From the IMG/VR virus record IMGVR_UViG_3300009068_000115, positions 1 to 31,651 of that record: a DNA stretch of 31,651 nucleotides; one strand, written 5' to 3'. Positions 25,906-27,970 of the stretch are shown in pieces. A program made the translations under genes and the position numbers. Source of the stretch: a virus. The notes beneath the pieces are model-generated. The model was not told where the DNA came from and searched no databases. It saw nothing but the letters and a program-made list of their open reading frames with translations. Positions within the stretch are counted from its first letter, which is position 1; every line of letters starts with the position of its first letter.

Positions 25906-26295
25906 ATGAACACCGCACAAATTGAAGGAATGATTGATCGCATTTGTGGTCTGTTTCCTACAAGTCAAATTGCACGCAATACGGTTAAGAGTGCGTGGAC
26001 TAGCGATGACTTTCTGACCTTTCAAAGTGTTGAAGATGCACGCAAAATTATTCCGCTTGTAATGGAACAGTTTGAGAAGTTTCCGAGCCTTAAAGAAGTG
26101 CACAGAGTTTTCAGGCAGTTGCACGCCTACACGATTCCAGCGATGGTGCAGAACTGTGAAATCTGTTTAGGTCAAGGTTGGGATAATGGCGAACGCTGGA
26201 ACTTTGCAGACAAAACACTTTTAGATGATTGCTATACCGAAGTTCATTTAGGGCATCAGTACAGAGTTGTTAAGAGATGTATTTGTAGAAAATAA
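25906..26295 (+). CDS. Zn-binding protein, possibly replication related (129 aa)
   Basis: The ATG has an excellent AGAGGAGGAAG upstream. The first 85 residues are helical (IEGMIDRICGLFPTSQIARN, VEDARKIIPLVMEQFEKFPS, LKEVHRVFRQLHAY), a pattern similar to phage helicase-loader or replisome-organiser N-termini. The end has a DnaJ-like zinc motif CEICLGQGW and a distant pair RCIC. This composition may mean a small loader or adaptor for the host replisome, which would make sense because no replicase is seen; this is inference. Confidence 0.65.
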   Translation: MNTAQIEGMIDRICGLFPTSQIARNTVKSAWTSDDFLTFQSVEDARKIIPLVMEQFEKFPSLKEVHRVFRQLHAYTIPAMVQNCEICLGQGWDNGERWNFADKTLLDDCYTEVHLGHQYRVVKRCICRK

Positions 26296-26640
26296 TTGTT
26301 TCCGATAACTAGAAGAATACTCACAGACCTAAACCATTCGCAAGGTAGTTGGTGACACTCGGCAACGAGGGTAGATCACGCTGTAAGCAATTACGGTGTG
26401 GGGCGAATAATAAAAGAGTTGGGAATCGCAGTTGAGGCAGTGCGATGGGGGCATTTAGAAAACTGACTTACTTACTAGATACACAAACATTGAAATAAAA
26501 ATATATGTGTATAAACAACAAGAGCAACAGAAGTGATAAGGTTGAGGCATACGCCGACTGAGGCAAACGATGAGCGACTACGCCACGATCTGTCAAGGAC
26601 AGAACAAAGAAAACTAATAAACCAACAACCAAGTTCAGAA
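26296..26640 (+). ncRNA. Candidate structured RNA in a 355-base intergenic region
   Basis: ATTCGC (26336-26341) pairs with GCGAAT (26403-26408) and encloses two hairpins, both with GCAA tetraloops: CTCG/CGAG (26358-26361/26366-26369) and the 10-base-pair CACGCTGTAA/TTACGGTGTG (26377-26386/26391-26400). A further hairpin ATCGCA/TGCGAT lies at 26425-26446, and CTGTC/GACAG at 26590-26602. GTTGAGGCA occurs at 26431 and 26541, with TGAGGCA again at 26559. No credible gene is in the region. A possible -10 (TATAAA, 26510-26515) has only a poorly spaced -35. It could be a phage small RNA or a cis-acting leader of the downstream gene. Confidence 0.65.
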
Positions 26641-26650
26641 GGAGGACAAG

Positions 26651-27205
26651 GTGAATCGGAGTTATATGAAAAAAGTTATTGCAGGTATTTGTATATGTTT
26701 TATTTGGTTTGCTGGAATTGCTCACGCTGTGAGCGCACCTAACGATCTAAGAAGTGTTGCTGTTGATCTAGATAGCCTCGTTCGTGTTGATGCGATAGAT
26801 GTTGTTGCAGCCGATTATGTTTACCCGAAACAGTTTATGTGGGGTGATTGTTCTTGGATTGATCAGGTTGCTTTGGCTGCTGGTTGGTTGCCAAAAGATT
26901 TGGCTATGGTCAAAATGATTTCTGCTCGTGAGTCAGGTTGTTGCCCGAATCGTAGAGGCGGTGATGCTGTAGATAAGTTTTGTAATGTAACAAAAGTTAC
27001 TGAGTGGTCGCACAGATCGGATACTGGCTTGATGCAACTGAATGGCGTTCACTGGTTGCAATCGCACAAACAGTACGCAGGATTATTTTGTAAGGAATAC
27101 AAAATCTGCGAACAAGAGCCTCTGCTTGATGCGTTCACGAATCTGCGTATGGCGAAAGCGTTGTTTGATGTGGTGGGCTGGTCAGCGTGGCAGAAACAGC
27201 CTTAA
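26651..27205 (+). CDS. Secreted lytic transglycosylase/lysozyme-like protein
   Basis: GTG 26651 is preferred, because GAAGGAGGACAAG stands directly upstream; the internal ATG at 26666 is the alternative. A signal peptide or anchor (MKKVIAGICICFIWFAGIAH, residues 6-25) precedes the domain. The catalytic-type Glu is in ISARESGC (E98), followed by SDTGLMQLNGVHW (from about 124) and NLRMAKALFDVVGWSAWQ, the standard SLT/lysozyme-like elements. Six or more Cys outside the signal could form disulfides. It degrades peptidoglycan from outside the membrane. It is far from the lysis cassette and sits behind a structured RNA leader. Confidence 0.82.
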   Translation: MNRSYMKKVIAGICICFIWFAGIAHAVSAPNDLRSVAVDLDSLVRVDAIDVVAADYVYPKQFMWGDCSWIDQVALAAGWLPKDLAMVKMISARESGCCPNRRGGDAVDKFCNVTKVTEWSHRSDTGLMQLNGVHWLQSHKQYAGLFCKEYKICEQEPLLDAFTNLRMAKALFDVVGWSAWQKQP

Positions 27206-27904: not shown

Positions 27905-27970
27905 AAGTTCGGGTGGCTGGCAGGCACTCAGGTTCAAGCCCTGAACACCCACAAGGCGAAAGCCGAAACT
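27905..27970 (+). ncRNA. tRNA T-arm-like structured element
   Basis: TCAGG-TTCAAGC-CCTGA (27928-27944) is a perfect five-pair, seven-base-loop T arm. GGGTG (27911-27915) and CACCC (27946-27950) can pair as an acceptor-like stem around it. The 11 bases between them replace the D and anticodon arms, so this is no complete tRNA. A hairpin GGC-GAAA-GCC (27955-27964) follows, and AGTTCGG (27906-27912) can alternatively pair with CCGAAACT (27963-27970). It sits in the 97-base gap between two small genes. It may be a tRNA remnant, a tRNA-like regulatory RNA, or an attachment-site core. Confidence 0.55.

Follow-up and report, generated by a model that had tools for sequence, protein, structure and literature searches.

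The locus and its gene-free gap

The window, by which we mean the whole stretch of DNA that was analysed, is a virus record of 31,651 bp. Its genes include TerS, TerL, portal, head, tape-measure, RecE-like, SSAP, WhiB-like, ParB-like, and glycosyltransferase-like genes. Carriage of WhiB-like genes is regarded as indicating an actinophage (PMC10202952), and the WhiB-like gene points to actinobacteria as the hosts of the RNA-bearing phage group described here. The list of open reading frames leaves a gap (26296-26650) without a good gene, as the first-pass annotation had noted. The gap is preceded by a + strand gene (25906-26295) encoding a small protein with a CxxC...CxC pattern that is otherwise uncharacterized, and is followed on the same strand by a gene (26651-27205) encoding a secreted lytic-transglycosylase-like protein. 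One homologue of the latter scores weakly with Pfam SLT_3, and a Pfam search with the window's own protein gave no match.

The gap contains a structured RNA core (26326-26452), a spacer, and a second conserved stretch. Within the interval first proposed for an RNA (26336-26602), the core ends at about 26452, and the remainder consists of the spacer and the separate conserved stretch. This second stretch (26541-26608, + strand, CATACGCCGACTGAGGC...CTGTCAAGGACAG) lies in the 5' leader of the lytic-transglycosylase-like gene and is probably separate from the RNA core. It is nearly invariant in window-type phages and is not seen upstream of the HNH-TerL genes that follow the RNA in other phages. 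Three small hairpins are predicted within it, with a double change in one of the 13 predicted pairs, which is too little variation to establish a structure. A repeat of GTTGAGGCA reported earlier in this region is coincidental, being peculiar to the window in both places; relatives have AGTGAGGCA in the first place and, in the second, mostly GTTGAGACA or a related sequence.

A tRNA-like mini-element is found at 27908-27955 of the window (GGGTGGCTGGCAGGC..TCAGG-TTCAAGC-CCTGA..CACCCA). It consists of an acceptor-like stem and a canonical T-arm without an anticodon arm, and ARAGORN made no call. The element is 90-97% conserved in most of the relatives matched, and it is matched in 40 Streptomyces phages (~86% over 42 nt) at 73 unannotated places. 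The T-arm stem of the phiCAM copy differs through compensatory changes (CTCGGG/CCCGAG). The element is possibly a tRNA-mimic RNA of actinophages.

A pseudoknotted RNA core with covarying helices

The region 26326-26452 (+ strand) is almost certainly a structured RNA, and it is assigned to class A of the family discussed below. Covariance model R1 matches this region with 122.4 bits (E 1.9e-34), a score that is not independent as the window is one of the 29 sequences of R1, and the 5'-domain model R2 matches 26321-26376 with 78.1 bits. The window carries every class A helix (P1, P2, P3, the pseudoknot, and P5) together with the conserved core, all on the + strand. P1 (26333-26346) is a hairpin of 3 bp, ACC/GGT (26333-26335/26344-26346), with an 8-nt loop. 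Its pairs are kept in 29 of 29 members, with A-U/G-C and C-G/G-C double changes. The loop holds ATTCGC (26336-26341), which is complementary to GCGAAT (26403-26408) downstream of the second GNRA hairpin. The first-pass annotation had recognized this complementarity and had read it as a stem closing the domain. The pairing is real and covaries (a U-A/C-G double change in nine class A members, and one double change also in class B), but because ATTCGC lies in the loop of P1, a small 5' hairpin that the earlier reading had missed, the pairing forms a pseudoknot and not a nested closing stem.

P2 (26358-26369, CTCG-GCAA-CGAG) is 100% paired; two of its pairs in class A and three in class B have double changes, and its loop is GNAA in all 138 sequences scored (GUAA in 51, GCAA in 46, and GAAA in 41). 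P3 (26376-26401) is a hairpin of ten to eleven pairs with a GCAA loop. The four basal pairs are 100% paired, three of them with double changes, and the upper part forms a hairpin in all class A members despite differing arm sequence and length; the loop is GNRA in 40 of 41 class A members. P2 and P3 are the two GCAA-capped hairpins described earlier, one of them with ten pairs, and the separate downstream hairpin of that description is P5 (26425-26446). The arms of P5, ATCGCA and TGCGAT (26425-26430/26441-26446), enclose a conserved loop motif, TGrGGCA, and are flanked by GGG (26421-26423) and GGGGG (26447-26451). P5 is 94.5% paired, with double changes at four of five pairs. Overall, the core formed by P1, P2, and the pseudoknot is nearly invariant, and P3 and the part preceding the last hairpin vary. 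A conserved run-in just 5' of the core, GATAACTAGAAGAATACTCACA (26303-26325, + strand, boundary approximate), also emerged when the upstream sequences of loci that differ in their upstream genes were aligned. The small phages of class A have CGATAACTAGTAGCGCAT at this place, and class B has AATCGGCTAGTAGCAC. This run-in is a probable 5' part of the RNA.

The structure was evaluated in alignment A4, which comprises 29 diverse class A members including the window, with model columns 8-10/19-21 for P1, 33-36/41-44 for P2, 51-54/73-76 and a variable upper part for P3, 12-16/78-82 for the pseudoknot, and 106-110/123-127 for P5. Standard pairs make up 95.2% of the cells for the 21 proposed pairs, and 13 of these pairs have changed on both sides. 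The covariation score was 0.474 versus at most 0.104 when the partners were slid, a control that preserves the relatedness of the sequences and in which 30-43% of cells were paired. On the + strand there are 33 G.U cells and 6 A.C cells, which indicates that the + strand is the RNA. The compensatory changes in every helix and the preserved GNRA loops, together with the lack of an Rfam match described below, bear out the first-pass proposal of a new structured RNA with two GNRA hairpins, for which a homology search followed by covariation analysis had been suggested as the check.

It is extremely improbable that the conservation reflects a short protein or a chance fold rather than RNA structure. 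At z = -0.40 (single sequence), the folding energy of 26320-26480 is unremarkable, as such a reading would have it, and that of the whole gap gives z = -2.13; energy alone fails to distinguish the core, and it is the comparison of homologues that does so. All helices show compensatory changes, indels of one base occur between members of the family, and no ORF of at least 50 aa lies over the core among the open reading frames of the window.

Distribution, classes, and genomic context of the family

The RNA family is found in more than 120 uncultured phage contigs, with at most one copy per contig. In relatives located via the transglycosylase the gap has 83-96% DNA identity; in L013 the identity is 84% for the gap and 71% for the upstream gene. 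In L014 the element occurs at a different place, before an HNH gene, indicating that it is an independent unit. A pattern with any P2 stem allowed matched 51 viral contigs, and a pattern built on the 5' domain gave at least 120 matches, exactly one at each matching locus. The 123 distinct sequences gathered, from which the family total is to be read as a lower bound, include two chance matches from bacterial genomes (L163 and L164, found in GTDB with a looser pattern), which were rejected on their low scores with the covariance model. The strict pattern had no match in the 84,980 species genomes of GTDB, and a pattern for members bearing a different P1 3' strand found none. A blastn search of cultured phages gave no match for the region or for a class A locus and just a 22-base chance match for a class B locus, and the 5'-domain model had no credible match in the cultured small actinophages RRH1 and phiPsal1. 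Core identity between members is 82-96%, and the family keeps highly conserved unpaired segments.

The family can be divided into two classes. Class B has the 5' domain (the first ~51 nt), the pseudoknot, and the last hairpin in common with class A; the loop of its last hairpin contains GGGCA and the hairpin is flanked by GGG and GGGTGG. The middle part differs in that P3 is longer and there is an additional hairpin whose loop is GUAAACAUAAU. For 12 class B members the share of paired cells is 96.1%, double changes occur at 16 of 35 pairs, and covariation scores 0.342 versus at most 0.066 with slid partners. The class A model finds all eight of the class B loci tested (E about 6e-17 to 5e-22). 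The class B loci L075 and L077, and apparently also L154 and L076, have an extra folded module ~70 bases upstream of the core, GCTGG-[hairpin]-GCTAAGT-[hairpin]-CCAGC, in which the hairpins vary. The whole window and six class A and B loci had no match in Rfam 15 (4227 families) at gathering thresholds, and at E up to 10 there was a single chance match on the opposite strand. The family is new with respect to Rfam 15 and to the open-access papers found on the subject.

The gene downstream of the RNA encodes an HNH-TerL fusion in 89 loci, the transglycosylase in 23, and an inserted HNH protein in four; 21 further loci end too early to show it. The upstream genes belong to several unrelated families, with VRR-NUC the commonest. 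A sensor leader specific to the secreted transglycosylase, as the first-pass annotation had envisaged, is not supported, as most relatives have another downstream gene, and the retention of the core while both the upstream and downstream genes change makes any gene-specific sensor unlikely. The compact pseudoknot and the invariant unpaired segments would suit a metabolite-sensing riboswitch or a self-cleaving ribozyme, but this is quite unlikely given that the two classes have different middles, that the downstream genes are unrelated and include no shared metabolic gene, and that no Rfam family matches.

The position of the RNA differs between the phage groups. In the ~14.6-kb phages (contigs of ~14.2-14.8 kb) the RNA starts ~590 bases before the right end and precedes HNH-TerL and the structural genes. 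Many contigs end at one point immediately before CCCCGACCCAA, and the left ends of several resume immediately after it, so this site is probably cos. The packaging RNA of phi29 is ~120-174 nt long and is encoded near a genome end. A comparable role in DNA packaging, whether as RNA or as DNA around cos, would fit the ~590 bases between the RNA and the putative cos end and its location upstream of HNH-TerL. This role is nevertheless very unlikely, for in window-type phages the RNA is equally conserved ~26 kb into the 31.7-kb record, away from TerS/TerL and from any such genome-end position. Unlike phi29 pRNA, the new RNA occurs in phages with an ordinary TerL and, in the window phage, a match to a terminase small subunit, and identity with phi29 pRNA was rejected as its covariance model matched neither the window nor the six class A and B loci.

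In the HNH-TerL phages the HNH nuclease and the large terminase are one ORF of 577-583 aa (L125, 2339-4069; L066, 5207-6955; and many ~14.6-kb contigs). The putative cos, at the junction of ...GCC and CCCGACCCAA, lies inside this ORF, and a linear genome would therefore split the gene. In L076, L122, L137, and L155 the RNA and HNH-TerL are separated by an inserted HNH-type gene, which may encode a homing endonuclease, and the RNA is unchanged. The window group and the small phages have morphogenesis proteins and the transglycosylase in common, so that the RNA marks one broad phage lineage. The proteins common to these phages are often only remotely alike, and the constancy of the core across them suggests a conserved host target.

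Possible roles of the RNA

The spacer that follows the RNA in the small phages is rich in A and C and poor in G (A.37-.42, C.28-.32, G.17-.19, T.12-.14), compared with a near-equal base composition of the contigs overall. This bias is weak in window-type phages. Rho-utilisation sites are A/C-rich and G-poor. The RNA is flanked by TTGACATACC-like repeats in the small phages of class A and followed by alternating AT/GT tracts in those of the window type; a run of 5-6 G is found near its 3' end. These features could belong to a replication element in which the RNA acts as a primer or within a transcription-activated origin and the repeat-containing A/C- or A/T-rich spacer serves as the unwinding region. 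We regard such a role as unlikely, as the spacer sequence is wholly different between phage groups and the ParB-like and exonuclease genes are located elsewhere. In a consensus scan, terminator-like and promoter-like sites were no commoner than in shuffled sequence; there is thus no visible array of intrinsic terminators to be read through.

The RNA has the orientation of the genes and is always upstream of a gene, and in most members 11-36 bases separate the upstream stop codon from the core. This co-orientation, the long gap before late or lysis genes, and the rut-like spacer lead us to prefer, tentatively, a leader that acts in cis by binding the transcription machinery of the host, in the manner of put or EAR. 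The RNA would be transcribed in the same direction as every phage gene and would fold co-transcriptionally in the long gap after the recombination/nuclease genes. In the ~14.6-kb phages the next gene block would consist of the terminase and structural genes, and in the window phage of the lysis-type gene and those beyond it. The folded RNA may bind a conserved part of the host's transcription apparatus, and polymerase could thereby escape pausing or Rho-dependent termination within the A/C-rich spacer, in a way similar to the action of putRNA in HK022.

EAR RNA, from the exopolysaccharide operons of Bacillus, is ~120 nt long with a pseudoknot, lies inside the operon, and promotes processive antitermination. 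It is bacterial, with different helices and sequence, and cmscan found no Rfam match for the new RNA. The putRNA of HK022 is a phage RNA that acts in cis, has two stem-loops, and works without any phage protein (PMC9378689). The new RNA resembles putL and putR as a phage-encoded RNA co-oriented with the genes downstream of it (PMC9378689). The put RNAs are ~70 nt long, with two stem-loops, and are located downstream of early promoters, whereas the new RNA has a core of ~127-190 nt that includes a pseudoknot, GNRA loops, and at least five helices. With five helices and a core of ~127 nt, the window RNA does not belong to the HK022 put elements.

The main rival to the leader, and nearly as likely, is a separate phage RNA of ~130-200 nt that acts in trans. 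Such an RNA would arise by processing of the surrounding operon or by transcription next to it, and would bind a protein of the host or the phage, for example RNA polymerase, the ribosome, or a nuclease, like 6S-like or decoy RNAs; the other roles are less likely than these two. The unrelated downstream genes and varied upstream genes, the single copy per locus, and the high conservation of unpaired segments are consistent with action in trans, as is a single promoter-like site (26267-26296), though such sites are not above shuffles. Against it stand the short distance from the upstream stop codon, the constant placement upstream of a co-oriented gene, and the consensus scan, which found no terminator-like site after the RNA; strict adjacency and co-orientation are just as compatible with a processed trans-acting RNA.

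Other structured RNAs, including GOLLD, ROOL, and HEARO, have come to light through comparative genomics across phages, bacteria, and metagenomes, and several of them have no known phage function (PMC2864571, PMC12286853). These are much larger or are tied to other genes, and cmscan matched the new RNA with none of them. HEARO, the omega RNA of IscB, was rejected in that its covariance model had no match and the adjacent HNH domain belongs to a TerL fusion rather than to IscB. It is conceivable, if doubtful, that this phage-only modular RNA uses its pseudoknotted, near-invariant core to commandeer the RNA polymerase or ribosome of actinobacteria in an undescribed way, possibly linking late expression and packaging.

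To our knowledge, few structured phage RNAs show strong covariation, and most of these lack an assigned function. The two natural variants of this family separate a fixed core from exchangeable parts and are ready-made mutants for studying whether the core binds a partner such as host RNA polymerase or the ribosome. Under the leader model the mechanism would be a version of an already described type, the family itself being new. An antiterminator would extend cis-acting RNA antitermination to actinophages, and a trans-acting RNA would be a new phage regulator.
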